This document shows positions 1 through 24,900 of a stretch of DNA of 38,360 bases, one piece after another. Below the pieces are notes generated by a model. The model was not told where the DNA came from. It worked only from the letters and a program-made list of their open reading frames with translations, and did no database searches. The number at the start of each line of letters is the position of its first letter. The first letter of the stretch is position 1. This DNA comes from Lachnospiraceae bacterium (lineage in GTDB: Bacteria > Bacillota > Clostridia > Lachnospirales > Lachnospiraceae): assembly GCA_017465475.1 (NCBI GenBank), contig JAFTWC010000024.1:1-38360 (forward strand), in the 5' to 3' direction. The position numbers and the translations under genes are program-made.

Positions 1-333
1 ACCAATGATATGAGTTATGTGTTGGAGGACAAAGACAGAAGAGAAGAATATATTAACGGGTATATTGAGTTCTTAAAAAAGGTGAGAAAAAACAATCCGA
101 TGGCTCAGATTCTTTGTACATTGGGAATTATGGGAGAAGCCTTATGTCCGGCAGTGAAAGAGACTGTAGAACGGTATGAAAAGGAGACGGGAGATGTAAA
201 GGTTTCCTATATGGGATTTCATGATCAGTTGCCGGAGGACGGATATGTGGCAGATTGGCATCCGACCGAAAAAACACACACCAAAGCAGCAGAAAAGTTG
301 ACAGAGGAAATAAGAAGAATAATGTCCCGGTAG
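1..333 (+). CDS. SGNH/GDSL-type esterase, CE2-like (3' end only)
   Basis: Only the C-terminal part is present; the reading frame is open from base 1, so the true start lies outside the window. The first codons read T-N-D, which fits the end of the 'GTND' block of SGNH hydrolases, and the motif ADWHP near the C-terminus supplies the family's catalytic Asp-x-His pair. The tail after it (KTHTKAAEKLTEEI) is the usual last helix. In carbohydrate esterase family 2 these enzymes remove acetyl groups from plant or wall polysaccharides; whether this one has the CE2 N-terminal jelly-roll or a signal peptide cannot be seen. The gene is closed by an intrinsic terminator right after its stop. Family placement is fairly sure, substrate is not. 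Confidence 0.75.
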   Translation, partial: TNDMSYVLEDKDRREEYINGYIEFLKKVRKNNPMAQILCTLGIMGEALCPAVKETVERYEKETGDVKVSYMGFHDQLPEDGYVADWHPTEKTHTKAAEKLTEEIRRIMSR

Positions 334-2155: not shown

Positions 2156-3343
2156 ATGAAAATAAATTATAAACCAACGATTTATGCCTGTTTTGTGGGG
2201 TATATTGTACAGGCAATTGTAAATAATTTTGCACCGTTGTTGTTTTTGACCTTTCATAAAACATATGAAATACCGTTAACAAAGATTACTTTTTTGATTA
2301 CCTTTAACTTTTTGTTGCAGTTAACGGTGGATTTTGTGTCAGCTGTTGTAATCGACAAAAAAGGATACCGGGTGGCAGCGGTAACGGCCCATGTGTTTGC
2401 TGCCACGGGACTTCTTTTACTGGCAGTATTGCCGGGGGTGACACCGGATCCGTTTGTGGGACTGATGATAGCGGTGTTAGTGTATGCGGTAGGCGGCGGT
2501 TTGTTGGAAGTGCTGATAAGTCCTATTGTAGAGGCTTGTCCTACAGATAATAAAGAAGCAGCCATGAGCCTTCTGCATTCCTTTTATTGTTGGGGACATG
2601 TAGGCGTAGTGCTTGTTTCCACGGCATTTTTTGCCCTGGTTGGAATCGAACATTGGAAAGTACTCGCTGTTTTTTGGGCAGCGATTCCGCTTATTAACGG
2701 TTTTGTTTTTTTGAAGGTACCGATTGCAAGGCTTCTCTCTGATGAAGAGAAAGGGTTGACTATCAAGGAACTGGTTTGTAAAAGATCGTTTTGGCTATTT
2801 GTTGTTTTAATGTTTTGTGCCGGAAGCTGTGAACAGGCAGTCAGTCAATGGGCATCTGCTTTTGCGGAAAAAGGACTCAATATCAGCAAAACGCTGGGGG
2901 ATTTGGCAGGTACTATGGTATTTGCCGTATTGATGGGATTATCCCGTGTGTTATACAGTAAAATCGGTGAAAAAGTAAATTTACATAAAGCGATGTCGTT
3001 TTGCGGAGTGCTGTGCGTATGCAGCTACTTATTGATTTCATTGTCATCGGTTCCTGCTTTGGGATTATTGGGATGCGGTTTGTGCGGATTTTCAGTAGGC
3101 CTTCTATGGCCGGGAACATTCAGCCTTGCATCGGCAGGGATTCCGAAAGGCGGAACAGCCATGTTTGCATTTCTTGCATTGGCAGGAGATTTAGGGTGTT
3201 CCATGGGGCCGACTCTGGTAGGACGTGTTTCGGGAGCAGTAGGAGATGATTTGCAAGCGGGCATTTTGGCGGCTGTTATACTACCGGTTCTTCTGTTGAT
3301 AACATTACAGATATGTAGGAATGATATGAAAAAAGGGAAATAA
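2156..3343 (+). CDS. MFS transporter
   Basis: A 395-residue protein with about twelve hydrophobic segments spread over its whole length, typical of the major facilitator superfamily. The N-half has a family-like loop (DKKGYR, near residue 66), and two six-helix halves are separated by a charged stretch with LSDEEKGLTIKEL. I chose ATG 2156 because TTGAGG lies five bases upstream and the protein then starts right before the first helix (MKINYKPT). A start at 2132 is possible. The frame stays open back to 2012, but that would cross a terminator and the promoter. The substrate cannot be told; it loosely resembles sugar or drug permeases of Clostridia. The next gene begins 13 bases after the stop, so the two are probably cotranscribed. 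Confidence 0.85.
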   Translation: MKINYKPTIYACFVGYIVQAIVNNFAPLLFLTFHKTYEIPLTKITFLITFNFLLQLTVDFVSAVVIDKKGYRVAAVTAHVFAATGLLLLAVLPGVTPDPFVGLMIAVLVYAVGGGLLEVLISPIVEACPTDNKEAAMSLLHSFYCWGHVGVVLVSTAFFALVGIEHWKVLAVFWAAIPLINGFVFLKVPIARLLSDEEKGLTIKELVCKRSFWLFVVLMFCAGSCEQAVSQWASAFAEKGLNISKTLGDLAGTMVFAVLMGLSRVLYSKIGEKVNLHKAMSFCGVLCVCSYLLISLSSVPALGLLGCGLCGFSVGLLWPGTFSLASAGIPKGGTAMFAFLALAGDLGCSMGPTLVGRVSGAVGDDLQAGILAAVILPVLLLITLQICRNDMKKGK

Positions 3344-3356
3344 AGGAGAGTAAAAT

Positions 3357-4463
3357 ATGAGAAAAAAGATTTTGTTTTTTTTGGCAGTTGCTGTATTAGC
3401 ATTCGCCGGATGTCAGGAAAAAGAAAGTGCAAAACAGCCGGATCGTTCTAATAGAGATAAAGTAACTCAGGAGAAAGATCAAATAGAGAGCGGAGAAGAG
3501 AATGCGGAAAACTCCGACGGGACGGGAGAAAACGAAAATTCGGGAACACAGGAATTTACGCCGACCCCGGAGCCGATAGCTACTCCGGAGCCGACAGCTA
3601 CTCCAGAACCGACGGCTACTCCGGAACCGACAGTGACTCCGGAACCGACGGCTACCCCGGAGCCGACGTCCACACCGAAACCGACAAAGAAGCCGAAGGC
3701 AACGGCAACCCCGAAGCCGACGAAAAAGCCGAAAGCAACGGCAACCCCAAAGCCGACAGCTACGCCAAAGGCATCCGGCGTGAAAGTGACGGATCCCAAG
3801 GATTTTACTTATATGGCGGAAAATTGGAGTGGGGATACGTTAAAAATAACCGGTTTGGAGCCATTACGGGTTACGGTTGATAAGTCTAAAGTTACGGAAC
3901 TTTTAATTCCGGAAGAGATTGACGGTTTGCCGGTGCTTAGTTTTGAAAATTTCGCGTTTAAGGACTTTACCGGGTTAAAGACGGTAGAAGTGTCTGATGG
4001 ACTTACAAAGTTGGGATATGAGTTATTTTCCGGGTGTAAAAAGCTGACCACTGTTAAGTTGCCGAACAGTATGGTAGAAATTTCTCAATATGCATTTAAA
4101 AATTGTACGAGTTTGACGCGCATCAGTTTGCCGTATCAGGTGGAGCAAATCGGTGACGGTGCATTTAGCGGATGTACTTCATTGGAAAGAATGAGTATAC
4201 CGGATAAAGCAACTTATATCGGAAATAAAGCGTTTGACGGTTGTACGGGACTTGTTAGCGTCAGCGTTCCGGAGGGAGCAATTATCTTAGATTATGTATT
4301 CAGAAATTGCACCGGTTTGGAAGAGATTGAAATACCGGCAAGTGTAGACTGGTTTTCGGATACGGCGTTTGACGGATGCAGTAAAAGTTTATGTTTTGTG
4401 ACACCGGCGGGGTCTTATGCGGATACTTGGGCAAGGAGTCACGGCTACAAAGTGAAAAACTGA
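3357..4463 (+). CDS. Lipoprotein with TPEP stalk and BspA-type leucine-rich repeats
   Basis: A 368-residue surface lipoprotein. Residues 1-19 are a lipoprotein signal (MRKK, hydrophobic core, lipobox FAGC with Cys19). An acidic, low-complexity stretch follows, then a stalk of TPEPTA repeats that turns into lysine-rich TPKPTKKPKA repeats (about residues 66-138). The rest (about 140-360) is a set of about five 22-24 residue repeats of the type 'ALxxCTSLxxIxLPxxVxxIGxxAFxGC', the LRR_5/BspA pattern; in other proteins such repeats bind partners at the cell surface. RBS AAGGAG is seven bases upstream. It precedes an HTH gene by 37 bases; a second lipoprotein with the same stalk sits next to the HTH paralogue further on, which suggests that HTH and lipoprotein belong together. 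Ligand unknown. Confidence 0.88.
   Translation: MRKKILFFLAVAVLAFAGCQEKESAKQPDRSNRDKVTQEKDQIESGEENAENSDGTGENENSGTQEFTPTPEPIATPEPTATPEPTATPEPTVTPEPTATPEPTSTPKPTKKPKATATPKPTKKPKATATPKPTATPKASGVKVTDPKDFTYMAENWSGDTLKITGLEPLRVTVDKSKVTELLIPEEIDGLPVLSFENFAFKDFTGLKTVEVSDGLTKLGYELFSGCKKLTTVKLPNSMVEISQYAFKNCTSLTRISLPYQVEQIGDGAFSGCTSLERMSIPDKATYIGNKAFDGCTGLVSVSVPEGAIILDYVFRNCTGLEEIEIPASVDWFSDTAFDGCSKSLCFVTPAGSYADTWARSHGYKVKN
3560..3770 (+). repeat. Tandem repeat coding the TPEPTA/TPKPT stalk
   Basis: About a dozen imperfect 18-base units (ACTCCGGAGCCGACGGCT type), with the later ones switching to lysine codons. The array lies in frame inside the lipoprotein gene, so gain or loss of units would alter stalk length without a frameshift. 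Confidence 0.85.
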
Positions 4464-4500
4464 TACGAAAAGTTTTGGGGAGACGAAAGTAGGAGAAGGT

Positions 4501-4950
4501 ATGGAGGAAAAACAGGTGCAGCAGAACCGGAAGAAGGATACGGTAATGTTGCAGTCGGAACTAAAAAACGCGGAAAGTGCGGAAGCTTTTGTCCGGGCAA
4601 ATCAATCAGAACTGAATATGAAAAGTGTGACGGAGTATCTGACGGAATTGTTGATTAAGTATAACGTTGAAAAGTGTGACATTTCCAAGCGGGGTGGATT
4701 TTCCGGCAATTATGTCTATCAGATTTTTAACGGAGTGAAAAGTGCCAGCAGAGATAAATTGATACAGATTGCGCTGGGCTTTCCGTTAACGTTGGAAGAA
4801 ACACAGTATTTGCTACGGGTAGGAGGTCACTCGGAACTGTATGTCAGAAACAGTCGAGATGCATATTTGATGTTTGCCATTGAAAAAGGCTATGAAGTAC
4901 AAAAGGTGAATGAATTATTGTTTGAAAATAAAAAAGAGTTGTTAGAGTAG
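4501..4950 (+). CDS. Small helix-turn-helix protein (copy 1)
   Basis: A 149-residue protein about two-thirds identical to the product of 5122-5577. The segment around residues 60-95 (KRGGF.GNY.YQIFNG...SRDKLIQIA) is a lambda-repressor/XRE-like HTH: YQIF is the recognition helix and the last part the following helix. The N-terminal segment (KKDTVMLQSEL, then ES.E.FV) is conserved between the copies. The C-terminal third (ELYVRNSRDAYLMFAIEKGY...NELLFENKKELLE) is helical and shared as well; it may be a partner or dimer surface. I recall similar HTH proteins beside Ser/Thr kinases in Lachnospiraceae, which fits the kinase gene at 6732, but function is unproven. Target promoters are unknown. A terminator follows directly. 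Confidence 0.85.
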   Translation: MEEKQVQQNRKKDTVMLQSELKNAESAEAFVRANQSELNMKSVTEYLTELLIKYNVEKCDISKRGGFSGNYVYQIFNGVKSASRDKLIQIALGFPLTLEETQYLLRVGGHSELYVRNSRDAYLMFAIEKGYEVQKVNELLFENKKELLE

Positions 4951-4992
4951 AAAAACAGGGTTGTTGCCATAAAAGCGCAACCCTGTTTTTTG
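4951..4992 (+). terminator. Intrinsic terminator after HTH copy 1
   Basis: AAAAACAGGGTTG pairs with CAACCCTGTTTTT and ends in a T-run. It separates the first lipoprotein/HTH pair from the second. Confidence 0.9.
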
Positions 4993-5015
4993 TTCAAAAA
5001 TTATTCTCTGAGTGT

Positions 5016-5044
5016 AAGACTTTTTCGGAAATCTCTTTTATAAT
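5016..5044 (+). promoter_or_regulatory. Sigma-A promoter of the second HTH/lipoprotein pair
   Basis: AAGACT (5016-5021), 17 bases, TATAAT (5039-5044). The -10 box is perfect, the -35 box moderate. The leader to the GTG start would be about 70 bases, in which I see no clear structure. Confidence 0.6.
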
Positions 5045-5121
5045 GAAATAGAGTGAAAAATAGAAAAAGAGTTACTTCGAAAAATTAATATAATGTATAT
5101 TTTATCGAGGGGAGAATAATT

Positions 5122-5577
5122 GTGAAGACGATACCAAAAAAAGAAGGTGCCGACAGACGGAAAGATACCGTAACGTTGCAAAATGAACTTCGTCATTCCG
5201 AAAGTGTGGAGCAGTTTGTTAGGGATAATTCGGAAGAACTGGGTGTTATGAGTGTATCGGAATATCTGAACGGATTATTGAAGAAATATAATTTAGAAAA
5301 AAGCGATGTAACGAAACGAGGCGGCTTTAACGGAAATTACCTATATCAAATCTTTAACGGAAAGAAGAAGGCCAGTCGGGACAAATTGATTCAAATTGCT
5401 TTGGGTTTTCCTCTGACAGTGGAAGAAACACAGGAACTGTTAAAGTGCGGGGGATATGCGGAACTCTATGTAAGAGACAGTAGGGATGCTTTTTTGATGT
5501 TTGCTTTGGAAAAAAAGTACGTGTTGCGTGAAATAAATGAATTGCTGTACAAAAATAAAAAGAAGATTTTGGAGTAA
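5122..5577 (+). CDS. Small helix-turn-helix protein (copy 2)
   Basis: A 151-residue paralogue of the protein at 4501-4950, colinear over the full length. It has the same HTH core (TKRGGFNGNYLYQIFNGKKK, then ASRDKLIQIA) and the same conserved N-terminal RKDTV.LQ.EL segment. The start is GTG at 5122, chosen because GAGGGGAGA lies seven bases before it and the alignment with copy 1 begins right after. Differences lie mainly at the N-terminus and in the last 40 residues, while the DNA-contacting helix is almost unchanged, so both copies may bind the same or overlapping sites. It is followed after 19 bases by a TPEP-stalk lipoprotein gene and is surely cotranscribed with it. The role in the cluster is inferred from position only. 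Confidence 0.85.
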   Translation: MKTIPKKEGADRRKDTVTLQNELRHSESVEQFVRDNSEELGVMSVSEYLNGLLKKYNLEKSDVTKRGGFNGNYLYQIFNGKKKASRDKLIQIALGFPLTVEETQELLKCGGYAELYVRDSRDAFLMFALEKKYVLREINELLYKNKKKILE

Positions 5578-5596
5578 CCATAGGAGGAAGCGCAGT

Positions 5597-6598
5597 ATGA
5601 GAAAAAGATATTTGTTAGCGATGGTAACATTGACGATGTTGCTTTGCCTGACGGGCTGTCAGAGCAAAGAGGTAGGAGAGAACCCGCCGGCCACGAAGAA
5701 TCCGGCGGAGGAAGTAAACGTAACAGTAACCCCGGAACCGACAGCCACGCCGGAACCGACGGCTACGCCGGAGCCGACGGCTACGCCGGAGCCGACCGCC
5801 ACGCCGAAGCCGACAGCTACGCCGGAACCGACAGCTACGCCGGAGCCGACCGCCACCCCAGAGCCGACCGCCACGCCGGAACCGACGGCTACGCCGGAGC
5901 CGACCGCAACCCTGAAGCCGACGGCTACGCCGGAGCCGACCGCAACCCCGAAGCCGACAGCTACACCGAAGCCTGTAGTAAAGTCATTTGAGACATCGCC
6001 GAATGAATCTTATTCCGAACAGTACGGAATTGCAAATGCGCCGCAGGAAGCGAGAGTGTATGAAGAAGGGAAAATGTGGTTTGAGATGACCCAATTTGAG
6101 CCGAGTGTTTGGGCTAAGGCAGGTATTTCCGGACTTAAGATTAGCAGAGAAGGGATGTATTTTAAATCCAGAGATGCTTATATCGAAGGTGTGGTAATTG
6201 ATTATACGGATGGCGGTGCCGGTGAAGATGTGGTACATGAAAAAGTGATGGGATTTATGACGGTAGTAGATAAAGAACATCAGGCGCAGTATAGTTTAAT
6301 AACGGCTTCGGCGGAAGAAATAAGGGAAGAAATGCCTTACAGAGGAAATTACTCTGTGGATGATGGTGCCACCAATGAAATTATTTGTTATGATATAAAT
6401 GATGCGGGAGAGGATTATGCAAAAAAGGATCATTTCCACCGTTATTCCGGACGGGTTTATCAGGATATCGGATTGCCGGGATGTTTATCCATTTGGTTCC
6501 ATACAAATGAACCGGTTTATGACGAAGATGTTTTTTCGGAGTTTATTGAAAAAATAAAATTAAACCCGGGAGATTATGAGATAATTCCATTGGAATAA
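5597..6598 (+). CDS. Lipoprotein with long TPEP stalk and unknown C-terminal domain
   Basis: A 333-residue surface lipoprotein. The start ATG 5597 follows TAGGAGGAAG; the frame is open from 5537, but that part overlaps the HTH gene. The signal peptide ends in lipobox LTGC. Residues about 45-127 are a nearly pure (TATPEP)n stalk. The C-terminal domain (about 130-333) is not one I recognise. It is acidic, contains many aromatic residues and looks like a mixed beta-sheet fold; it has one remaining Cys in DIGLPGCLSIWF and one in EIICYDIN. It shares the stalk but not the end domain with the lipoprotein at 3357, so the two pairs (lipoprotein-HTH, HTH-lipoprotein) may display different sensors or binders. 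Confidence 0.85.
   Translation: MRKRYLLAMVTLTMLLCLTGCQSKEVGENPPATKNPAEEVNVTVTPEPTATPEPTATPEPTATPEPTATPKPTATPEPTATPEPTATPEPTATPEPTATPEPTATLKPTATPEPTATPKPTATPKPVVKSFETSPNESYSEQYGIANAPQEARVYEEGKMWFEMTQFEPSVWAKAGISGLKISREGMYFKSRDAYIEGVVIDYTDGGAGEDVVHEKVMGFMTVVDKEHQAQYSLITASAEEIREEMPYRGNYSVDDGATNEIICYDINDAGEDYAKKDHFHRYSGRVYQDIGLPGCLSIWFHTNEPVYDEDVFSEFIEKIKLNPGDYEIIPLE
5731..5976 (+). repeat. 18-base tandem repeat coding the TATPEP stalk
   Basis: About fourteen units of the kind ACGGCTACGCCGGAGCCG, with GAACCG/GAGCCG/AAGCCG variants. It is related to the array at 3560-3770 and is a likely site of length change by slippage or recombination. Confidence 0.9.
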
Positions 6599-6616
6599 GG
6601 GACTTAAGAGTAAGAA

Positions 6617-6678
6617 ACACAAGGGGAAGCAGTCTGTGGTTTGGCGTAAAGTCACAGGGCTGTTTCCCTTGTTTTTTA
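6617..6678 (+). terminator. Intrinsic terminator after the second lipoprotein
   Basis: ACAAGGGGAAGCAG...TGTG pairs imperfectly with CACA...CTGTTTCCCTTGT, followed by six T. The outer 7-bp stem (ACAAGGG/CCCTTGT) is perfect. Confidence 0.8.
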
Positions 6679-6697
6679 GGCGTGGGTATGCTATTCT
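6669..6697 (+). promoter_or_regulatory. Promoter of the kinase gene, overlapping the terminator
   Basis: TTGTTT (6669-6674), 17 bases, TATTCT (6692-6697) with the extended -10 element TGC just upstream. The -35 box lies in the end of the preceding terminator. A start near 6704 gives a leader of about 28 bases to ATG 6732. Confidence 0.5.
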
Positions 6698-6731
6698 TGA
6701 AAGTGATACGGGAAAGAAAGTAGGTGCCGAA

Positions 6732-8570
6732 ATGGATTACATGAAGTATATAACAATTCAGGTGATAAAAAAATCCGAGCGTTCTGAAGTTGTTTTTGCG
6801 GCAATGGATGAAATGGACGTACCTGTTGTTGTAAAAAAGTTACAGGGGGCAAATCCGGAGATATACCGAGGGATTGCAAAGCTGCGGAATTCTCATATTC
6901 CGAAGATTTATTGCGTGGAAGAACAAGGAGAAGAATTGTGTATTGCAGAGGAATATATTGACGGGCGAACTCTGGATGTATACCTTGCGGAGGAAAACTT
7001 GACGGATGTACAGAAGCTGGAGCTGATGGTGCAGTTATGTGAGGCTTTGGAGGTACTGCATCAGTGTAAACCGCCGGTAATCCACAGGGATATCAAACCA
7101 TCGAATGTATTAATTACCGGAGACGGAGTGCTAAAGGTGATTGATTTTGATGCATCCAGACAGTATAAAACAGAAAAGAATACAAGTGATACACGATTAC
7201 TCGGGACCATAGAATATGCGGCACCGGAACAGTTTGGATATGCACAGACGGATGTGCGAAGTGATATCTATTCTGTCGGAGTCGTGTTCAGTGAAGTGAA
7301 AATCGAAAGCGAGGCACCGTTTGCTAAGATTTGGAAACGTATTGTAGATAAGTGTACCAGTTTCGATCCGGAGAATAGGTATAAGACAGTCACAGAGCTG
7401 AAAAAAGATTTATTAAAGTGTATTGACAGAGAAAAGAATCCGTTATGGAAGCGGTGGCTGGTTCCGACAATGGCAGCAGGAGTAGTACTTGTTATGTTGG
7501 CGGCAGGGGGCGTGCAACAACAAAGAGAAAAGAGTCGTGAGGAGCAGGGGAATTTTGAACTGACACCGACCGGACAAGTTGTCGATACGGTGGAGTTACC
7601 GACCAAAGAACCGGAGAATGTAAAAAAGACAGAACCGTATAAAAAGAGTATGAAACCGGAAGATGTGACGGAGGTGTATATTCCTAATGTACGTTGGGGG
7701 TATCTGGGGGAGGACGGAGAATACAGAATCGGAAAGAGGTTGGCGGGAGAACAGACGGAAAAGGTGGGGTATTCCTGTCGAGGGCTAATGTATAAGGATG
7801 CCCGGGATGTTTCATGGAAGTTACATGATAATGATACTATATCATTGACGTACGAGAAGCAAAACGGACAATTGCTATTGGAATTTTCGGAAGTATTTGA
7901 TATGAAGTATTGTAACCGCCTTGTGGTACGGGCAAAAAACGAGGCGGGAAATATTGCAGTTGTGTTGTATGATGAGGACTGCAAAGAATTGGAACGTTGG
8001 CCTCTGGATAAGACAGAGGGTACATGGGAGTTTTCGTTTTATCCGGAGAAGGCGGGGATAGCAGAGTATATCGGTTTTATGGCAAATGACGAAGGTTTGT
8101 CGGAGTATGCTGAGTTTAAAACCACAATTTATTATGTGGATTTTTATATGTTAAATCCGGAAAATGAGAAGATTTCTTATGAACCGGCGGACTTGGTGGA
8201 AGAAATGTATTATAATTTGACCAGAGATTACATGGCAGATGGTTCGGTGTGTCTGGATTTTTCCAGGGTGTACGGAGCGATGTATCTTTCGTTTCCCGAA
8301 CCGGTGAAGATGAAAGAAGGGGATACGGTCAGTGTGGTAGTGGACACCGGCGGGAAATATGTTACCTTCGGTTTGCTTGATGAAGAAATGAATGTTATAG
8401 AATGTAGTTATGACTATAGGACGGAGAGAATGGAAGAAGTGATGTTGGATATTACTTCAAACAAAACGGTATACGGAATCGAGATTATGTTAGATGAAAA
8501 AAACGATGGGGATTCTACCTATTATAAGGACGGCGAGGTGGCGGTACAATCGATTCATTTTTATCAATGA
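6732..8570 (+). CDS. Membrane Ser/Thr protein kinase with extracellular repeat module
   Basis: A 612-residue eukaryotic-type kinase. Cytoplasmic part, residues 1 to about 236: VVVKKL with the ATP-binding Lys near 35, catalytic HRDIKPSN with Asp120, metal-binding DFD (138-140, in place of DFG), activation segment ending in GTIEYAAPEQFG, and RSDIYSVGVV. The glycine-rich loop is not recognisable and the C-lobe between SDIYS and KCTSFDPENRY is short. One membrane helix (about 241-262) is followed by a linker and two outside modules of about 130-160 residues; the first is clearly homologous to the modules of the next gene's lipoprotein. There are no PASTA domains, so this is not a plain PrkC. I start at ATG 6732; the frame is open to 6636 but crosses the terminator and promoter. 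Likely role: an envelope-sensing kinase acting with the nearby HTH proteins (inference). Confidence 0.87.
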   Translation: MDYMKYITIQVIKKSERSEVVFAAMDEMDVPVVVKKLQGANPEIYRGIAKLRNSHIPKIYCVEEQGEELCIAEEYIDGRTLDVYLAEENLTDVQKLELMVQLCEALEVLHQCKPPVIHRDIKPSNVLITGDGVLKVIDFDASRQYKTEKNTSDTRLLGTIEYAAPEQFGYAQTDVRSDIYSVGVVFSEVKIESEAPFAKIWKRIVDKCTSFDPENRYKTVTELKKDLLKCIDREKNPLWKRWLVPTMAAGVVLVMLAAGGVQQQREKSREEQGNFELTPTGQVVDTVELPTKEPENVKKTEPYKKSMKPEDVTEVYIPNVRWGYLGEDGEYRIGKRLAGEQTEKVGYSCRGLMYKDARDVSWKLHDNDTISLTYEKQNGQLLLEFSEVFDMKYCNRLVVRAKNEAGNIAVVLYDEDCKELERWPLDKTEGTWEFSFYPEKAGIAEYIGFMANDEGLSEYAEFKTTIYYVDFYMLNPENEKISYEPADLVEEMYYNLTRDYMADGSVCLDFSRVYGAMYLSFPEPVKMKEGDTVSVVVDTGGKYVTFGLLDEEMNVIECSYDYRTERMEEVMLDITSNKTVYGIEIMLDEKNDGDSTYYKDGEVAVQSIHFYQ

Positions 8571-8611
8571 TAAGGCGGGATGCTGATTTGCAAAAGGAGG
8601 AACGGGGCAAG

Positions 8612-9802
8612 GTGAAACAAAAGAGAATATGGTATGTGTTTGGGATTGTCGCATTGCTTATGTTTGCCGGCTGCGGGAAAGAGAACCTATCAAAAAGTAC
8701 AGAAGAAAATGGTTTCATATCAAACGACACGACGACGCAAGCTGCGTCGGAGGTAACAGAGCCGGTTTTGCCGGTACCGGAGGTTATACTTGACGAGAAT
8801 GAACCGGAGCAAATGGAATATAGCTACTCCTTTTATGAACTGTGGTGTATGGCTGATACGGGACAGGTCTATGAAGTGACGGAGGACGGCGCGTGCCGGG
8901 TGGTATTTGAGGAGCAGTATAATCAGTTGACGTTTGCTTTGCCGGAAGGAATCAATATGGCAATGTGTGATTATGTGACGGTAAAAGCGAAAAGTGAGTA
9001 TGCAGAATTGGCGGTGAAGCTGTTCGACAAAGAAGTATATGCTGATCCGTGGACTCAGGAAGTATATACCCGTTATGACTGTCACGGAGAGGGTGTGCAG
9101 GAGTATGAGCTATATCCGGCACTTTCCTGTGTTGTATGGGGAATCGGGCTTATGTCAAGTAATGATGCGGAGGATTTTTCACAGTATTCCGTAGAAGCAT
9201 ACAGTGTAACCTTTCATATGAAAAGTTACGAGGAACGGAATGCAATAGTGAGTTTGACCACGGAATCAAACAGTCCGACCCCAACGCCGAAGATAACAAA
9301 GATACCGACAGAAACGGAAGACCCGACGGTGCGTCCGGCCTCCGTGGGAGAGAATGGTACGGTAAGAAGAAGGAAAACAATCATAAGGAAACAAGCAGAG
9401 CCGGTAAGGTATACGGCAAAACAAATGGAACAGGAAGAGTGGTTGAATATATCCTGTCAGTATGATAAGGATGAATCCATGAGATTGAATTATGACAGAA
9501 TCTACGGGCGGATGGTTTTTGAACTCAAAGATGTCATAGACATGAAGTATTGCGAGGAAATAATTATCAGGTTCAAAAATGAAGTGGGGAAAATTGACAT
9601 TGATTTGCATAATGAAGACAACCTGTCGGTGGAAGTGGTGTCCTATGAACCGAAGGAAGGAATCCGTGAAGTTCGCCTTTCGCCGAAATATGAGGGATAT
9701 TTGGAGTATATTCGTTTTATGGCAAATGATGGGGAATTGGAAGATTATTCCGGATTTGAAACCACAATTTACAGTGTGGAGTTTTTAATGACGAAACCAT
9801 AG
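8612..9802 (+). CDS. Lipoprotein with two copies of the kinase ectodomain module
   Basis: A 396-residue lipoprotein. I choose GTG 8612: AAAGGAGG ends 11 bases upstream and the product then begins with a normal lipoprotein signal (MKQKRIW, hydrophobic core, lipobox FAGC). An ATG at 8567 overlaps the kinase stop (ATGA) and would only add 15 polar residues. The mature protein has an acidic linker, module 1 (about residues 65-210), a Thr/Pro linker, and module 2 (about 270-396). Module 2 matches the first kinase module closely: DMKYC, then I.RFKNEVG / VRAKNEAG, IRFMANDGEL / IGFMANDEGL, and ETTIYSVEFLM / KTTIYYVDFYM. The modules look like beta-sandwich, carbohydrate-binding-like folds, but I cannot assign a family. 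Close similarity and adjacency suggest that lipoprotein and kinase bind the same ligand or each other. RBS and operon point to cotranscription with the kinase. Confidence 0.85.
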   Translation: MKQKRIWYVFGIVALLMFAGCGKENLSKSTEENGFISNDTTTQAASEVTEPVLPVPEVILDENEPEQMEYSYSFYELWCMADTGQVYEVTEDGACRVVFEEQYNQLTFALPEGINMAMCDYVTVKAKSEYAELAVKLFDKEVYADPWTQEVYTRYDCHGEGVQEYELYPALSCVVWGIGLMSSNDAEDFSQYSVEAYSVTFHMKSYEERNAIVSLTTESNSPTPTPKITKIPTETEDPTVRPASVGENGTVRRRKTIIRKQAEPVRYTAKQMEQEEWLNISCQYDKDESMRLNYDRIYGRMVFELKDVIDMKYCEEIIIRFKNEVGKIDIDLHNEDNLSVEVVSYEPKEGIREVRLSPKYEGYLEYIRFMANDGELEDYSGFETTIYSVEFLMTKP

Positions 9803-9859: not shown

Positions 9860-9890
9860 CCGCCTGCAAAATATTGACTTTTGCAGGCGG
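9860..9890 (+). terminator. Hairpin at the end of the kinase operon
   Basis: A perfect 12-bp stem, CCGCCTGCAAAA with TTTTGCAGGCGG and a 7-base loop. The downstream T-tract is poor (GTCTGTTAT), so termination may be incomplete. The loop holds the -35 box of the next promoter. Confidence 0.65.
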
Positions 9891-15992: not shown

Positions 15993-18900
15993 ATGAGACA
16001 TGCAAGTAAAAGACTGATTGCAGTGCTTTTGACGGTAGTATTGTTGTTTTCCATGCTTCCGAGGGCAGTACAGGCAGAGGATGTGTCGGGGAACGGATTG
16101 GAGGCACTGGCCAGTGTATATCTGCCGATTGTAGAGGAAGGGGCGGAAGCTGCGGGACTGTTTCAGAACGGAGCTAAGTACTATTATGCGTCTACAAGTG
16201 CAATGAGTATTAGATTGAATGATGTGACAGTTCCGAGCGAAGGAAGCGCATCTTTGCAAAATGCGCGGGTGCAGGCGGTGAACGGGGACACGGTTGTGGC
16301 TCAGTCGGAACAGAGCACAATTTACAATTATAACGGCGGTTATCATGTGAGTACCGAGCTTTTCTTTTTAGTGCAGCCTGCGGTAGGAGATTATGAATTA
16401 CAGGTTGTATATGGTGACGCAGAAAACATGACTACGTTGGCAATTCCGGATTTGTTTTTGTCTGTAGTGGATGCGCCGGTAATCACTTATGCCGGAATTC
16501 AAAATTTATATAAGGGAGCGGCACCGTTTTCCTTGACCATCAGGGTGAGTGGATATCAGGGGAATCCGAATCTGTACACCTTTGGTTTGATGAATGGAGA
16601 AGGAACGGAAATTCCGTGTACAGCGACGTATAAATCATTGAGTAATTTCGGCTCTGAAGTGCAGATTACATATACGGTAACTCCGTCTCAGGCCTTGGCG
16701 GAGGATGTGTATGCATTGGTGATTTCTGCAAATTCAGTGTATTCCAATGCAGATAGTGTATCTGCAAGTGTAACGGAAACAGCCCCGGAAACGTTAACCA
16801 TATCCGGAGTTACCGCAAATGCTGCAGTGACCGGAGGCGTAACGGTAGTTGTTGATGATGCAACGGAAGGGGCAGAGTACCGGGTAAAGGCAGAGTATGT
16901 ACAGCATGGAAGTACTGTAATAGCGACGTTGTACGAGGGAGTGCTTATGCCGGTAATGGATGGAACGCAAGGTACATTTTCTCTTGTATTGCAGTACAAT
17001 GGGGTGACATTACCGTTATCGTCCTATAGTTATTTAAATGAATCAATTGTATTTACCGTGACAAACGAAAGTGGCGGAACGGATCGCTTTGAGTGTGAAT
17101 TTGCACAAGGAAACAGTAATGTGCGTAGTGAGCTTGAGATAACTCAAACAGGGACATGCCAGTATGAGTTTAAGTTAACCGGTGAAAATATGTTGTTAGA
17201 CGTGTATGCCGGTGAGAATAATGTGTTTGAGATTAAGAAGGATGAAACGACGCTGGCAACTTGTATGTCGGTTACCAAGTCCACTGTAACACAGCAGGAT
17301 ACGGTGTACTGCTATTTTACAGGAAGCTTTACAACTGCATCGGAACTTGATAGCACAAAATATTATGATTTCTATATAAACGGAGAACTGCATACCTCGG
17401 TAAAGGTAAAATTGCCGGTTGCTTCCGATGTATTGCAAGTAAAAAAGATTAAAACAGAGTTCGGATGGAGTTCTTTTAGTTTTTATTTTGACTGTTTGAC
17501 AGCAGAGGTGCTGGCTACAAACGGTGCAGGCACGGCCACCATGGAGTTGTGTGATGCCAATCAGTCGGTAGTGGCAACCTCCGGAGAAGTTGCGGGAACA
17601 GCAACAAGTGATGGCTATTGTTACCGGTTAACGCTCCAAAAGCCGGCAGAGTTCGATGAGAACGGAACCTATACGTTACGAATCAGAAGTGGAGAAAAGA
17701 CGCATTGGGTAGAAGGAACAAACGGGAAAACGTTTGACAGTACGGTACGTGCTCCGTACAGTTACAATGTAGATACTCCTGTTTTTGCGGGAGACAGTCG
17801 CCTTGTCATCGGATTGTCTTCTCCGAAAAATATTTCGTTGGAGTACTATGAAGCGAATCCGTTTTCTTTCTTACGAACAGGTGCGGATACGGGACTTTCC
17901 TATACGCTCGGAACTCCGTATTATTCCTTTGAGGAGGCTGAATGGAAACTTCCGCTGGAGTTATCTGAGCCGTTGGCATACGGAACCTATGAATATGATT
18001 ATTATTCCTTTACGACGCAAGGAAGCGGAACACCGGTGTTGGCAGACTGGTGTACAACGGATGATGTGAACAGGGTCATTACCATTGAAGGAAATCGGAA
18101 TCTTCCGGAAGCCTCTTATACGGGAGCACTTTTTGTAAACGAAGGGGATGGCGGAAAGGTTGCAGATGTTGCGTTAAGTAAGGACGGAGATGTATTGACG
18201 GTAACAAATCTTCCGGAGGGGATTGAAAACGGCAGTTATATGCTTGAAGTGTTTGCCGATAGTCAGTATATCGGTGCAGTAAGCTGTTATATAAGATGGA
18301 ATGTAAACACAGCGGTTCCGACCATTAAGGCATATGACAGCGAACATAGTTACACGGAAATTCAGTATGAAATCATAGGAAATAATGTTTGGTTTGATGC
18401 GGCATTAACCGGATATGCTTACGTTCGTTTTTCGGAAGATGCATTATTTGCAGACACACAGTATCAGGCAATTCGTAACAAAATCCCGTTCCTGTTAAGT
18501 GATGGAGAAGGCGAAAAAACGGTATATGTTCAGTTTAAAAAAGCAGGCGGAGAAGAAAGTGAAGTGTACCGTTGGCAGTATAAGATGTTGGAAGAGGCGG
18601 TAACTCCGGAAATCTTGTCCGTAGATGTACTGGTAAACGGCAGCAGTTCCATGTTTGTTCCGGAGTATACGGAGTTTGTATTACGACTTGTGACAAATTC
18701 TGCTCTGACCAGTGCATATGCAACGTTTGTTTTGGAGGATGGAACTCTTTCGTACACGGATGCGGAATTAGACTATGTGGAAAGTACGCAGGAAGGTGTT
18801 GTCTATGAGGCGGTACTGAATACCGGTAGTTATCCGTTTTCTAATGAAGCATATTACGGAGTTGAGTTTGCTATAACCGATATGTCCGGTTATCAAATGA

Positions 18901-21900
18901 ATCCGTACGATACGGAACGGATTTCTGTGTTAATCGGTGCGGAAGGCTTGTTATTAAAAGACTGGGAAAGCGAAAGTAAATTATATAAGAATACCGGAGC
19001 TTATACCGTTTCCGGTTACGGAATTCCGGGAGCCGAGGTGACGATTCAGCTTTACAATGCCAATGTCGGATTTAAGACGGAAGTGGTAACGGTATCTTCC
19101 TCCGGAGAGTTTTCTGCAGAGTTTACCGGATTGGGAGAACACACTTATGAAGTAACCGTAACGGATGATGCCGGAAATGATATTTGGAAGGATTTGGTTA
19201 TTGATAAGACTGCTCCGGTGATTGCCGGTTTTAAGGCTACGCTTGACCAAAGCGGAAATGCGGCAGTTTCCTGGGAGTGTGAGGAAGAGAACCTGAAAGG
19301 TTTTATTCTTTGGAGAGACGGTGCAAAGATTATTGATGAGTATAATAACTTTACGGATACAAGTTATATTGCATCCTATGCGACAGGCGCTGGTTTCGAA
19401 TTGCAAGCGGTAGATAAGGCAGGAAATTATTCGGAGAAGGTGCAGACCTCTACACAGGATACAGAGGCGCCGACGGCTCCGGGGGTTCCTTTTGTGACTG
19501 CTCACGGTACGAAGAAAATTTCCTTTAGCTGGACCGCGGCAACGGATAATGTGGCGGTATATCGGTATGAAGTATATCGCGGAGAAACAAAGCTTGCAAC
19601 ATTACCGTACACGGCATTAAGTTACAGTGATTCCGGACTTTTGCTCGGAACAGAGTATGAGTATCATGTCTATGCATTGGACCGTGCAGGAAATAAGTCG
19701 GAGGCAGCATCTGCCACACTTGCGACGGCGGGGTTAGAGATTGCATCCGTAAAGAACTTTGAGGAGAAGTATTACTTAGAGGCCTATATGGATACCAAGC
19801 GTCTTCCGGTTCATCTAAATCTGGAAGAAGATGCGCTCTATGATTTTTCCGGTGTAACGACAAAGATTCTTTATAAGCTTGAGAATGCACAGAGCTGGGC
19901 GGAAGAGGCCATGACAGGAAGCGGTACATATTATAGCGGAAGCTGGACCATAGACGGGTTGGAGCCGGGAATGTATCAGGTGAAGTTTAAGGTTTCCGAT
20001 GCGGAAGGGTCCGAGAATTTCTCTGAGGTTCAGACGGTTAAGATATTACACGATGATATCAATCCGGAAGTGACGGTAAGTTTGCCGGAGGAAGGCAGAA
20101 TATACGCAGGGAAGGAAATGGAAATTTCCGGTAATGCTACGGACAATTTAGTATTAAAGACTGTGGAACTTTATGTTTCTGCGGATGAAGGAGCATCCTA
20201 TACTAAAATAGCTACGGAGACAAATCCGCATATCACCGATTGTTTGTCTTATAATGTTTCCTATGAAGAGGCAAAGGATTTTCCGTCCGGAAGTCTTTGG
20301 TTTAAGGCGGTGGCAGTGGACAGCGCAGGAAACAAAGCGGAAGTAATCAGAAAGATTGTCCTGGATAATACGCCGCCGGATGGTCCGGAGAATTTCTGGG
20401 TTGGCGGTGACAAGGAAAAGATTACCGTAATGTGGAGCTATCCGGAACTTGCTCCGGAAAATGATTTCAGTCATTTTAACGTATATCGTTCTGCTACAGG
20501 GGAAGACGGTAGCTTCGCTGTGGTAGAAGAAATCGGTTCCATCGGATACTTTGATACATTGGAAACCGGAATTGTTGCGGATACCTTATATTATTATTAT
20601 GTGATGGCAGAGGATATATACGGAAATGAAAGTGAAGCTACGTTAGTACAGTCTGCAAAGCTGGTTGATGATACGGAAGCTCCGGTTATCCGGGGAATCG
20701 GTCCGGACGAGGATAGTTTGATAAAGTCAGCCGAACTGATTGTCAGTGCGACGGATAATTACAGACTGGATCGCTGTGTCATTGAGTATAAGAAAGCCAA
20801 TGCATCTGAGTGGACGTCACTTGCCGAAGTGGGTTGCGGTGATACCCCGGTGCGCAGCTATGTATATCATTACACATGGAATCTGGAAGGCCTGGAGGCG
20901 GGAAATTATCAGGTACGGTTTACCGTGTATGACGAACAGGAAAATGAACCGGCAACACAGATTTGCGACTATATCATAAAGGAGTACACTGCGCCGGTGG
21001 CGCCGGTGGCAACGGCACAGTCCACCGGACACAAGACAATTACTGTTTCCTGGACCTATGCAGGAAATCGGGAACTTGCAGAAAGTTTTTCCGTATATCG
21101 TTCTTCTGATGGGGTGTCCTACGAATATATCGGCATGGTTAATGTAGGAAACGACTGGAAGTATACGGATATACTTCGGTTTGAAGGGGATTCCAAGGAG
21201 TTTTTCTATAAAGTTGCAGTAAAAGATACATATTTAGCAACGTCAGAAAGTGTTGCGGTCAGTGCCGTAGCACAAACCGCAGATACGGAAAAGCCTGTTG
21301 CAGTGTTTGATATGAACAGTTCTGCGTATGCGTTGTGCGGAAACGAGATTACCTTTGACGCAGGAGGTTCTAAGGATAACGATAACATTGCGGAATATTC
21401 CTGGAACTTCGGAGACGGAAAGACTGCAAAGGGTGTGTCGGCAGCTCATGCATATACGACTCCGGGCACCTATACGGTACAGCTTACGGTAAAGGATGCA
21501 ACCGGAATTGTGGGAACCACCGGCAAAGCAGTGACAATTGTTGCGACAGAACAGGCAAAGGACTATACGGAGGTAGAAGTAGTAATTAAAAATGCACTGG
21601 ATAATTCGATGATTGCAGAGGCGGATGTCATTATTGTGGACAATAACGGAAGGGAAACCCCGCTTCGTGCAGAAGCCGGAACCGTAACCTGTTTGTTACC
21701 AAACGGTTTCTATACCGTACGTGTGGCGGCACAGGGCTTCTTAATCAGAAGCGTATCCATCACCTGTGAAGGCGGCGAAGCACAGCACATCATCGGTTTG
21801 ACCAACAGCGAGGTAATGGTAGGTGAGTTTAACGTAACAGAGATGACCTACGATGAAATCGTTGCAGCAGGAATCGATACAGAAGCAGAAGGAAATCAGC

Positions 21901-24900
21901 ACGTTTATAAGTTTAAGACGGAGATTACTTTTGTAGCCGGTTTAAAGATGTATTCCTTACCGTTGACACTTTATAAGAATAATAACGGTGAAACGGTAGG
22001 AAAGAGCGGAGACGGATTTTTCTTCTTCCCGCTGGGAACCGGTGGCGGAACCGGCGGAAGCGGTGAAGGTTACGGTGATATTAAGTTGCAGATTGATTTC
22101 TCCGAGCATTTTGTTCTGGCAATTTACGGTGAAGCACATTGGCTGAAGGAAATGTACCATGCACAACTAACCGTAATGAACCAGTCCTATACGGATACCT
22201 TAGAGCAGGTATCGGCAAAAATTAATCTTCCGGAGGGACTTTCTCTGGCGGATATGACAGGAGAACCACAGGAAGTCTATCAACACATCGGAACCATCGG
22301 TCACGGTGAGTCGAAAAAGATTGACTGGTACATTCGCGGTGATAAGGAAGGTGAATATCACGTCAGTGCGGATGTTATTGCGGTTTCCATGCCGTTTGGA
22401 GATGTGATTGAGCAGAGATTTTCCACAAAGGAGCCTCTTAAGGTATATGCCGGAAGTGCACTGCACCTGACCATCACGCCGGACAGCACCGCGGAACGGG
22501 GTGAGGATTATACCGTGAAGTTCCGTTTGGAAAACGTATCTGATAAGTCCTTATATAATCTTACCTTTGGTATTACCCGTTCCGAGCAGTATAAAGTGTT
22601 AGGCTGGGATGTGGATTCGCCAAAGTTAGAGCTGGAAGCTACGGACTACGGTGATACGTTTACAAAAGGAATTAAGGAACTGGGACCGGGCGGTTACATT
22701 GAATTAACTTTCTCCACAACCGTTTGGTTTAATTCCGCATTACATTTAGTGGAGCTTACAAAGCTGGGCGCATTTGTGGATATCGCATATTATGTTACGG
22801 ATGTTCAGGTGACTACAATGGAGGGAAGTACCACGGAAATTCCGTATACCATCAATATTAATCACAAGGAGCCGGATAGTTTCATTAACAAAATCGTGGA
22901 TAAGGTTTTTGAAGAAGCGTACGAGGAATTTTTTGATGAAGAGGTACACGGTCTCAGCTTCAGTGATTTTGTAGAACTTTGGGGAAAAGCGGAAGGGTTG
23001 GATGTGAACGTGATAAAGAAGGCAACCACACTGCTTAAGCTGGCCAAGGGTGAGACAAATCATAAGATGTTTGTTACCATTGATAACGGTAAGATTGACG
23101 GACACAGGATCTATAATGATTATATATCTGTTACAACCGGTAATGGTGTGGAAGGTATTATTGATAGCATTAATAATACGGGAGTTACGATTTCAGGAAC
23201 GGAACTTTCCATTAAAGTAAATGCACCGGGTAAGACATCCTTTAAGGTGGGAATAAAGGACGATTACGGTAATTTGGAATCGGAATATACCTTAAACTAC
23301 AACATTAAGGATGAGGAAGTAAAGCAAACGGTGACATTGACGCCGGAGGGAACCGAATTGAGCTATCAGGTAAACGGCGATATATGGGAAGATACCATAG
23401 GAAAAGTGCGGCAGGAAGAGCTGGAAATGCTGGCAATGAATCCGTTTATGGGATTCCAGTCCACCGTGGAATACGAATTAAGCGGTTCGGAAGGAAAGAA
23501 CAGTTACATGGTTACCATTGATGATGAGTCCATAAACGAGATGCTGGGACACACCGGTGTTTCTCACATGGGAGTAATGGGAGGTACTTCGGATGTGATT
23601 TTTGACCGTGATGCGTTACTGGAAATTGCAGATGAAGCCGATACGGATATTACATTGGTGGCGCGTCGCCTGAGTGAGGAAGAGGCAAAAGAACTGGGAA
23701 GTGATAAGCCGACCTATCAGTATCAGATTGTTTGCGGAGATGAAATGATTTCAAACTTCGGAACGGGTTCTGTATATGTAACGGTTCCGTATGAGTTAAC
23801 CGGAACGGAAACTGCCGATTCTATGTATGTAGAACATATTCTGCCGAACGGAAGAATTGAAAAGCTGGATGCAACCTACGATGCGGATCGAAAGACCATT
23901 AGCTTTTCTACGAACGGATTCTCTTACTTCCGTATTGTAAGTGAAACTTCTGAGAGTGATACCCCTGGCGGAAACACTCCTGGCGGAAACACTCCTGGTT
24001 GGACTCCGAGTTTGCCACCATTCGATAGTGGTACAACCGATGACGATACCACGGAGGATAAGGACGATGCCGAAGGTAAGGAAGATACCGAAGGTAAGGA
24101 CGACACCGAAGGCAAGGACGATACTGAAGGTAAGGACGACACCGAAGGCAAGGACGATATTGAAGATAAGGACGACACCGAAGATAAGGATGATACGAAG
24201 GAATCCGGTACGTCGATTCTTGTGTTGACCGAAAAGGGAACGGAAGAAAAGGAAGTAACCGTAAAAGAGGCGGTAAAGAAATATAAGAAACAGTCCTTCC
24301 ATTTATTCCGGTATAACAAGAAGGAAAAGAGTTACGAATATGTGGGAAGCGTGGAGCCGAAGCAGTTGGAAAAGACCATTGCCGACAGTAAGGATGAGGT
24401 AGTGGTAATTGTAGCCGGCGAAATGAAGACGACAGAGAAGGTGACATACAAGACCCACACCGTAAAGCACGGCGATACCTTATGGAAGATTTCCGAGAAG
24501 TATTTAGGAAAAGGAAATCGTTATAAGGAAATCATGAAGTTAAACAATATGGAAAGTGCCGTGTTGTATACCGGCATGAAATTAAAACTTCCGGTGGAAG
24601 AAACTGCAAAAGAAGAGGTATTTCTTGAAACGGAGCCGTCCGAAACTACCGCAATAACCAAGAACAAGACCCATACCGTAAAGCACGGTGATACCATGTG
24701 GAAGATTGCGGAACAGTATTTGGGTGAAGGCAGCCGATATAAGGAAATCATGAAGTTAAACAATATGACCAGTGCAATGCTGCGTACCGGCATGGTTTTG
24801 GAACTTCCGATTAAGGAGACACAGACATCCGTGACGGAAGGAAAGAGTATCTCCGTAGCAGATATTATTCGAGATTTGAATAAGCAACGAAAAGACGGGG

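Follow-up and report, generated by a model that had tools for sequence, protein, structure and literature searches.

Genes for a membrane Ser/Thr kinase and a small HTH protein form a conserved gene pair in Clostridia. In the window, by which we mean the whole 38,360-nucleotide stretch of DNA analysed, this pairing lies within six genes (3357..9802) that a previous sequence-only reading described as adjacent, and all six are indeed present in that order on the + strand. Our proposal, held with about as much belief as doubt, is that in this gut bacterium a receptor kinase responsive to plant xylan phosphorylates the two HTH proteins, which in turn govern surface proteins.

Kinase and HTH genes are paired across Clostridia

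In other genomes, 74 of 93 HTH-family genes lie no more than 350 bp from a kinase gene (33 of 41 in the family sample and 41 of 52 in the class sample). Of these pairs, 55 are divergent, 15 have the HTH gene first, 3 have the kinase gene first and 1 is convergent. Chance linkage of this kind would amount to roughly 0.1–0.2%, a figure that may be somewhat low because the kinase search (genus-kinase profile, E 1e-8) and the background rate (Pfam, E 1e-15) used different models and thresholds. The 93 genes are not independent, some coming from the same genome or genus, and the count leaves out the genus loci, the window and 28 further loci (L033–L060), several of which are genus genomes again; a kinase lies somewhere in the stretch in 22 of these 28 loci, the six without one being L034, L035, L041, L045, L046 and L058. 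Thirteen of the 93 HTH genes have no kinase within 5 kb in the fetched stretch, and of these 7 are at most 2.4 kb from a contig end and 6 are not. The HTH family is thus not found mostly away from kinases, the outcome that would have counted against the sequence-only reading, and the linkage supports that reading's view that kinase and HTH protein belong together. Across the 74 pairs, kinase distances also track HTH distances (r 0.58, against at most 0.12 in 2000 permutations), and the same genome holds a second kinase–HTH pair (C17 type) that is 49% identical in the kinase and 42% in the HTH protein. Because the gene pair is conserved, there is a high probability that kinase and HTH protein act in one pathway.

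Organization of the locus

An MFS transporter gene (2156..3343, +; Pfam MFS_1 E 2.4e-23; start codon picked by eye from comparison with sister loci) lies 5′ of the HTH genes here and also precedes them in sister loci. The unit may extend from this gene to a terminator-like hairpin before ilvD (9860..9890, +), which is uncertain, with 12 pairs and a poor T run; the hairpin scan as a whole was not above shuffles (9 observed, shuffle mean 6.8). Likely starts, judged by eye from Shine–Dalgarno-like sequence, were revised to ATG 5597 for the second lipoprotein (LIPO2), ATG 6732 for the kinase and GTG 8612 for the third lipoprotein (LIPO3). The sequence-only reading had divided the six genes into three two-gene units, which is not a conserved layout; sister loci instead run MFS–HTH–HTH–(LRR lipoprotein)–kinase–module lipoproteins. 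At the truncating contig end, the C-terminal end of a GDSL-type esterase (1..333, +) matches Pfam Lipase_GDSL below cut-off (E 0.0063), and a CE2-type esterase (CE2_N and GDSL by Pfam) lies upstream of the MFS gene in sister loci L025, L026 and L027. No RNA family in the window reached its gathering score, and neither Pfam nor NCBIfam pointed to a phosphatase in the six-gene set.

A Hanks-type kinase with a distinctive activation loop

The kinase gene (6732..8570, +; Pfam Pkinase E 1.4e-30) encodes a kinase domain (about 6741–7421), a single TM helix placed by hydropathy (about 7452–7517) and two ectodomain modules (about 7749–8162 and 8157–8567), as expected from the previous description of a membrane Ser/Thr kinase with outside domains. 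The residues that mark a Hanks-type kinase, namely the catalytic Lys, the HRD Asp, its Asn and the DFG Asp, are present, and among linked kinases the latter three are found in 83 of 83 sequences each and the Lys in 58 of 67. The window kinase has no recognizable glycine-rich loop (the Pfam match begins at profile position 45, and no GxGxxG is visible by eye) and reads DFD in place of DFG; the 83 linked kinases include DFN (21), DFD (16), DFG (13) and DYD (11). These are variable features that are compatible with the Hanks-type family and do not exclude membership. The activation loop of linked kinases follows the pattern D-T-x-x-hydrophobic-G-T, with D and T each in 80 of 83, and a similar D-T was seen by eye in 2 of 24 control kinases (L212 and L225), a control set that includes poorly aligned rows. 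With NF033483, the NCBIfam model for PASTA kinases, the window kinase reaches 139 bits where 450 is the cut-off, and it has no PASTA match in Pfam.

A nearly invariant threonine in the HTH family

HTH-A (4501..4950, +) and HTH-B (5122..5577, +, GTG start) are 67% identical over 141 aa, in line with the earlier estimate of about two-thirds. As possible Cro/C1 (XRE) regulators, both match Pfam HTH_3 (17 and 16.3 bits, cut-off 23) and HTH_19 (15.1 and 20.4 bits, cut-off 30.2) below gathering score; against the PDB, the HTH profile gives DnaI, not an HTH protein, as top match (E 0.028), and the best HTH structures follow at E 0.11 and 0.19. The Thr of an N-terminal KxTxxL motif is conserved in 127 of 129 family sequences, with a hydrophobic residue at +3 in 126 of those 127; it is the sole highly conserved Ser/Thr, the second-best column reaching 66%. 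This Thr (codon of Thr14, 4540..4542, +, in HTH-A; codon of Thr16, 5167..5169, +, in HTH-B) is one of two phosphosites put forward by the sequence-only reading, and its conservation makes the Thr of the RKDTV segment a good candidate phospho-acceptor. The other, the Ser of the SRDK segment, is present in 44% of HTH sequences and was rejected.

Six distant HTH relatives (L130, L132–L136) have neither KxTxxL ahead of the HTH region nor a kinase in 14–17 kb; one of them, L135, has an upstream KDT without the hydrophobic +3 residue. The six are a sample of 56 weaker or long-frame matches, with Pfam run on three of them, and at least six further matches that start at model position 2–7 (two in G033; one each in G071, G108, G127 and G126) lie outside this control. 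A 371-aa match from G091, whose layout resembles Macro-HTH proteins, was removed from the family sample.

The kinase displays modules related to a xylanase module

The sequence-only reading held that the third lipoprotein repeats the outside domains of the kinase, and the two indeed align at 36% identity over 164 aa (E 1e-31). LIPO3 (8612..9802, +; modules 8798–9232 and 9389–9799), which like LIPO2 has no Pfam match up to E 1, matches the xylanase module PDB 6SGF at E 3.9e-7, and a profile from 18 modules matches it at E 1.2e-12; kinase module 1 alone gives no match up to E 10. We take 6SGF to be CBM86 of a Roseburia intestinalis xylanase. In R. intestinalis CBM86 sits in a xylanase, whereas here the modules form part of a kinase ectodomain and of a lipoprotein that carries no enzyme. 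CBM86 is given as xylan-binding, in a GH10 gene, in PMC11913394. Other strong profile matches in the genome are to GH10 proteins on contigs C77, C11 and C72 and to one lipoprotein on C50 that looks deacetylase-like by eye. Two sister loci contain a module-bearing GH10 xylanase-type lipoprotein; in L026 it immediately follows the kinase, and in L025 one module lipoprotein stands between the two. The kinship of the ectodomain module with a xylanase module makes xylan or its fragments the likely surface signal. Among linked kinases tested, the module is restricted to this genus, and other linked kinases have LRR or multi-TM parts instead.

The two remaining lipoproteins share a TPEP stalk. One (3357..4463, +) adds a BspA-type LRR_5 domain (Pfam E 2.6e-47), and LIPO2 (5597..6598, +) adds an end domain without Pfam match that was found in this genome alone among 10 genus genomes. 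In a sample of stretches of the genome, the stalk also occurs on other lipoproteins, namely GH10 ones and one that by eye resembles a polysaccharide deacetylase, and because of this recurrence we regard the TATPEP stalk as a generic spacer. The sequence-only reading had drawn both stalked lipoproteins into signalling: the stalk and the LRR_5 domain are there, and the stalk as a sign of shared function or pathway was rejected. A part for LIPO2 in the signalling is likewise not supported, its end domain being private to this one of ten genus genomes.

A candidate operator precedes surface-protein genes

Upstream of HTH-B, a candidate operator–promoter (4999..5044, +) combines a 17-bp dyad, TTATTCTCTGAGTGTAA (5001–5017), with a TATAAT ending at 5044, so that the dyad occupies the −35 region and 21 bp separate it from the −10 box; the symmetry of the dyad was matched by 2 of 20,000 column shuffles. 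The sites were surveyed in one outgroup and 10 congeners, the latter mostly incomplete: eight sites had at most two mismatches, all in the four congeners with HTH-A/B and none in the other six. Four of the eight are HTH-B promoters, and these supplied the pattern; the other four precede LRR or stalked surface-protein genes, and two of these genes, one in G003 and one in G005, are orthologs with 66% identity. Looser patterns also matched outside the HTH-A/B congeners. When up to three mismatches were allowed, 15 sites turned up, spread over 7 of the 10 genomes, and all 7 with at most two mismatches were in the four HTH-A/B genomes. The gapped right half by itself matched at 14 sites, again in 7 of the 10 genomes; the left half is missing from those in G007, G008 and G009 and from three in G000 and G002. 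One site (G002:C6:3867) was not counted as a promoter, as its strand does not suit the gene that follows and, judged by eye, it coincides in part with a hairpin. Because no predicted site precedes a GH10 gene, the output looks like surface proteins and not xylanases. No common operator emerged at the 55 divergent kinase–HTH pairs across Clostridia, where only TATAAT-like words stood out, and the promoters of the second (C17-type) pair, compared over five loci, showed no convincing footprint. Neither the candidate operator nor the relation to a xylanase module had been noticed in the sequence-only reading.

A proposed signalling unit and its alternatives

Together these observations suggest a signalling unit in which a Ser/Thr kinase is dedicated to HTH regulators. 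This kinase, crossing the membrane once, is probably responsive to xylan or xylan fragments because it displays two CBM86-like modules outside. Ligand binding would pair kinases and lead to phosphorylation of the activation loop at D-T-x-x-hydrophobic-G-T, and the active kinase would then phosphorylate the KxTxxL Thr of HTH-A and HTH-B, a motif that resembles its own activation loop. The HTH regulators would bind the 17-bp dyad and switch HTH-B together with genes at scattered places that encode LRR or stalked surface proteins. Conceivably, LIPO3 and the LRR lipoprotein might serve as surface co-receptors or capture proteins.

The divergent layout is the commonest (55 of 74) and typical of local regulators, one operator lies inside the unit, and the conserved Thr, which precedes a predicted helix, would suit an N-cap, a role that an invariant Thr can fill; the HTH protein could thus be an autoregulator of the kinase operon, with the kinase acting on other proteins. 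We consider this doubtful, as an N-cap would accept Ser, Asp or Asn in place of so uniform a Thr, the pair is kept in same-strand and convergent layouts too, the six distant relatives examined retain the HTH region and not the motif, and sites also occur on contigs other than that of the kinase. Assignment of the dyad to another regulator or a sigma factor, with HTH-B merely a regulon member, is somewhat improbable: half of the sites are HTH-B promoters and the link to HTH-A/B is a co-occurrence within the surveyed genomes, yet the remaining sites fall ahead of surface-protein genes, including the orthologous pair, and the six congeners without HTH-A/B have no close site.

The modules might instead not gate the kinase and serve to hold the cell or its surface proteins on xylan, or their target might be a different polysaccharide or the bacterium's own wall. 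LIPO3, with modules and no enzyme, the LRR or multi-TM parts of other linked kinases and the lack of a 6SGF match for kinase module 1 alone agree with this; we nevertheless find it unlikely, because module and kinase share one polypeptide in the window, G002, G003 and G005, and GH10 and CE2 genes lie nearby in sister loci. An anti-phage defence kinase is very improbable and was rejected: the PADLOC models PD-T4-6 and mad6 match the kinase domain (best E 5.1e-40), but the best-listed matches cover the generic kinase domain, and elsewhere in the cluster there are only weak matches, to LIPO2 over the stalk (E 2.5e-4) and to HTH-B (E 0.0098), with no credible defence match, and hence no PD-T4-6 or MADS6 partner, among the other five proteins of the cluster. 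The preferred reading, a xylan-responsive kinase acting on HTH regulators, extends to a broader proposal that we hold to be evenly poised, that Clostridia contain a large undescribed class of one-to-one, two-component-like kinase–HTH pairs with one phospho-Thr motif, exchangeable sensors (CBM86-like, LRR or multi-TM) and surface-protein regulons, and that the window holds a xylan receptor of this class.

Comparison with known systems

Bacterial Ser/Thr kinases are described, in PMC4601284, as few per genome with broad rather than exclusive targets; the conserved kinase–HTH pair, by contrast, suggests a dedicated design. If correct, fibre-degrading gut Clostridia would sense plant xylan without a histidine kinase or anti-sigma factor. 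A word-based search of titles and first lines in the open PMC literature, with most subscription papers outside it, found no described CBM-bearing Ser/Thr kinase or kinase–HTH pair. PASTA kinases (PrkC, StkP and PknB) share the superfamily, one TM helix and a sensory ectodomain, and differ in their PASTA repeats and activation loop and in the DFG that is DFD in the window kinase. Bacteroides hybrid two-component systems, as PMC10766802 presents them, likewise use a membrane kinase to sense arabinoxylan and drive transcription, with a histidine kinase and response regulator of other folds. The closest known systems are RsgI–SigI and PknH–EmbR. In RsgI–SigI of Clostridium thermocellum (PMC12203970, PMC4711584 and PMC6056542), polysaccharide sensing outside also drives transcription inside, but the signal passes by anti-sigma factor proteolysis and not through a kinase; no RsgI-type anti-sigma domain was found among Pfam or NCBIfam matches of the six proteins. 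In Mycobacterium tuberculosis, according to PMC4601284, the membrane Ser/Thr kinase PknH phosphorylates the transcription factor EmbR on Thr, and the substrate motif of PknH has been argued to look like the site at which this kinase phosphorylates itself. EmbR has a paralogue, EmbR2, and is also phosphorylated in vitro by PknA and PknB. EmbR combines an FHA domain with an OmpR-type DNA-binding domain, in contrast to the small HTH protein with its N-terminal KxTxxL here, and the system described here further differs from PknH–EmbR in its recurrence as a gene pair across Clostridia and in its carbohydrate-type ectodomain.

Kinase and HTH genes are paired across the family and class

All six genes of the cluster were confirmed as the sequence-only reading had described them, including the approximately two-thirds identity of the two HTH proteins (measured at 67%) and the domains common to the kinase ectodomain and the third lipoprotein, LIPO3, which prove to be one domain repeated in both. 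Pfam matches place LRR_5 in the first lipoprotein and Pkinase in the kinase, and HTH-A and HTH-B match HTH_3/HTH_19 below threshold; LIPO2, which sits between HTH-B and the kinase, and LIPO3 had no domain match in this search. Shine-Dalgarno-like sequences, assigned by eye, set the starts of LIPO2 at 5597, the kinase at 6732 and LIPO3 at a GTG at 8612. The 3′ end of the unit may be a hairpin with a poor T run ahead of ilvD (9860–9890), of a type that does not exceed shuffles in the surrounding region. The genome to which the window belongs, as contig C28, measures 3.07 Mb and is 89% complete. The closest named HTH matches lie in MAGs of Lachnospiraceae; of the first four, three came from the hindgut of deer or sheep. 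Positions 15993–25187 encode 3,064 aa that include LysM, PKD and other Ig-like domains; this large protein is likely bound to the wall at the cell surface.

Co-occurrence of the HTH family with kinase genes, suggested earlier as a check, extends across Lachnospiraceae and the class. Genes assigned to the HTH family itself (short frame, E under about 1e-16) occur in 34 of 120 family and 39 of 293 class genomes, the genome of the window being in both counts; a second kinase–HTH pair lies on its contig C17. We fetched the surroundings of 41 family and 52 class genes, excluding the window's genome, one long-frame match and genes repeated between samples. In 33/41 and 41/52 cases a kinase gene is no more than 350 bp away; three more in each set have one farther off but within 5 kb. 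No kinase was found within 5 kb of the remaining 5 and 8 HTH genes; for seven of these 13, but not for the other six, the contig ends at most 2.4 kb away. Sixteen relatives hold 49 kinases, one to seven per genome, so chance adjacency would be roughly 0.1–0.2%, an estimate resting on two kinase searches of unequal stringency. The 74 pairs occur in four orientations (55 divergent, 15 HTH then kinase, 3 kinase then HTH and 1 convergent), a spread that speaks against a single fixed block having simply been inherited. Distances among the HTH proteins correlate with those among the kinases (r 0.58, compared with at most 0.12 in 2,000 permutations), and part of this correlation is due to shared species history. 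We consider it nearly certain that kinase and HTH protein act in one pathway.

In five loci (L048, L050, L051, L057 and L060), a small multi-TM protein of about 120–175 aa, possibly a partner, adjoins an HTH-linked kinase of multi-TM type. L045 and L046 hold two closely similar HTH genes and no kinase in the fetched stretch; their neighbours appear phage- or element-like by eye, and the L045 HTH keeps the conserved Thr described below. L038 packs two kinase–HTH units and four HTH matches into 9 kb, suggesting local duplication.

A conserved Thr is a candidate phosphorylation site

Of 131 distinct HTH proteins, 129 have a residue in the Thr16 column (numbered as in HTH-B), and in 127 of these it is Thr, bearing out the proposed conservation of the RKDTV Thr; the SRDK Ser, put forward alongside it, is present in only 44% and drops out as a conserved site. 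The next best Ser/Thr column, among those at least 90% occupied, reaches 66%. One exception, HTH-A of genus genome G003 (L026:9022–9567), still encodes KDT in that stretch but in a different frame, through either an assembly error or a frameshift that occurs naturally; in the other, L200, the family-model match begins only at position 18. The residue at +3 is hydrophobic in 126/127. Activation loops of linked kinases carry D-T ahead of G-T (D and T each in 80/83), and a similar D-T was seen by eye in 2 of 24 other kinases (L212 and L225). Both sites thus read T-x-x-hydrophobic. For PknH, a substrate motif has been reasoned to resemble the site at which the kinase phosphorylates itself (PMC4601284). 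The linked kinase probably phosphorylates the HTH protein at the Thr16 column.

Distant relatives provide a natural control for the association of motif and kinase. They carry the same HTH region behind a longer N-terminal extension, with a Macro domain in 3 of 3 tested. In six such relatives the HTH-model match starts at position 15–33, no KxTxxL occurs in the 60 residues ahead of the HTH region, and no kinase lies in the 14–17 kb covered; one, L135, has an upstream KDT without the hydrophobic +3. The six were drawn from 56 weaker or long-frame matches in the family sample; the control does not extend to at least six more whose match begins at position 2–7. Macro-domain proteins ending in a distant HTH relative include L132:7747–8868 (contig C77 of the window's genome), L133 and L134; a double GH10 lipoprotein is encoded 2.5 kb downstream of the C77 gene.

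The ectodomain module suggests xylan as a probable signal

LIPO3 residues 102–220 match PDB 6SGF (E 3.9e-7), an entry named Beta-xylanase, which we take to be CBM86. When 18 modules taken from kinases, lipoproteins and xylanase-type proteins were combined into a profile, it hit 6SGF at E 1.2e-12; the first kinase module by itself gave no match to 6SGF. Within the window's genome the profile strongly hits, besides the kinase and LIPO3, GH10 proteins on C77, C11 and C72 as well as a C50 lipoprotein resembling a polysaccharide deacetylase by eye, with four weak hits on C42 and C74; the genome has 16 GH10 matches. We judge xylan to be the likely ligand of the module.

Five of ten genus genomes (G000, G002, G003, G005 and G007) have matches to the query HTH. 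The same five, and G009 in addition, have kinases that align to the Pfam profile only from position 11 or beyond; in G009 no HTH lies on the 7.3-kb kinase contig. G003 (L026) reads MFS-HTH-HTH-kinase followed directly by two lipoproteins with GH10 and module; in G005 (L025), the kinase is preceded by an LRR lipoprotein and followed first by one module lipoprotein and next by a GH10 lipoprotein. CE2-type esterases lie upstream of the MFS gene in both. G002 likewise has a module-bearing kinase, on a short contig separate from that of HTH-A/B, so adjacency is not readable there. At L027:3685–6624, a CE2 esterase fused to a GH5 cellulase domain lies directly upstream of an MFS-HTH unit. Among linked kinases tested, the module is confined to the window's genus; among long C-terminal parts, 8 of 31 match LRR_4, and tails of three helices, judged by hydropathy, are frequent (23/74). 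The kinase–HTH pair is thus retained while its sensor part is swapped.

A candidate operator precedes surface-protein genes

The HTH-A/HTH-B gap of sister genomes shares the element AATTRTTCTSYGAGTRTAA, followed 21 bp on by a TATAAT-type box. With up to two mismatches, this layout occurs at eight sites in the ten genus genomes, all within the four holding HTH-A/B, and at none in the other six; up to three mismatches give 14 sites in 11 genomes versus 2 for the reversed pattern, and looser searches also match in other congeners. Four of the eight are the HTH-B promoters that yielded the pattern, so the independent part is four sites, in 3/4 genomes versus 0/6. Downstream of them lie the genes for a stalked LRR_5 lipoprotein (G000:C32), for a large LRR_5 protein of G003 and its G005 ortholog (66% identity), and for a stalked lipoprotein, again in G003. 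No GH10 gene is preceded by a predicted site. In another genus (G099), the element lies ahead of the second HTH gene with spacing one base longer. The core, 17 bp long, has dyad symmetry (48 pairs out of 72 possible; equalled by 2 of 20,000 column shuffles), and its −35 position would fit activation of a weak promoter.

A model for signalling and its relation to known systems

Building on the observed gene pairing, conserved Thr, module relation to 6SGF and operator site pattern, we propose that xylan would be bound outside by the module-bearing kinase, which would become activated and phosphorylate the HTH proteins; these would bind the 17-bp dyad operator, and the LRR lipoprotein and LIPO3 may have roles in the signalling unit. 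The core chain, from xylan-responsive kinase through HTH phosphorylation and operator to surface-protein genes, has in our estimate an even chance of being correct as a whole. Word searches of the open PMC literature, which cannot prove absence, returned neither a dedicated kinase–HTH pair nor a xylanase-type module on a Ser/Thr kinase; the individual parts are of known kinds. By analogy, PknH–EmbR would share the working mode of kinase-to-regulator signalling, and the likeness to RsgI would lie in the input side of the system.
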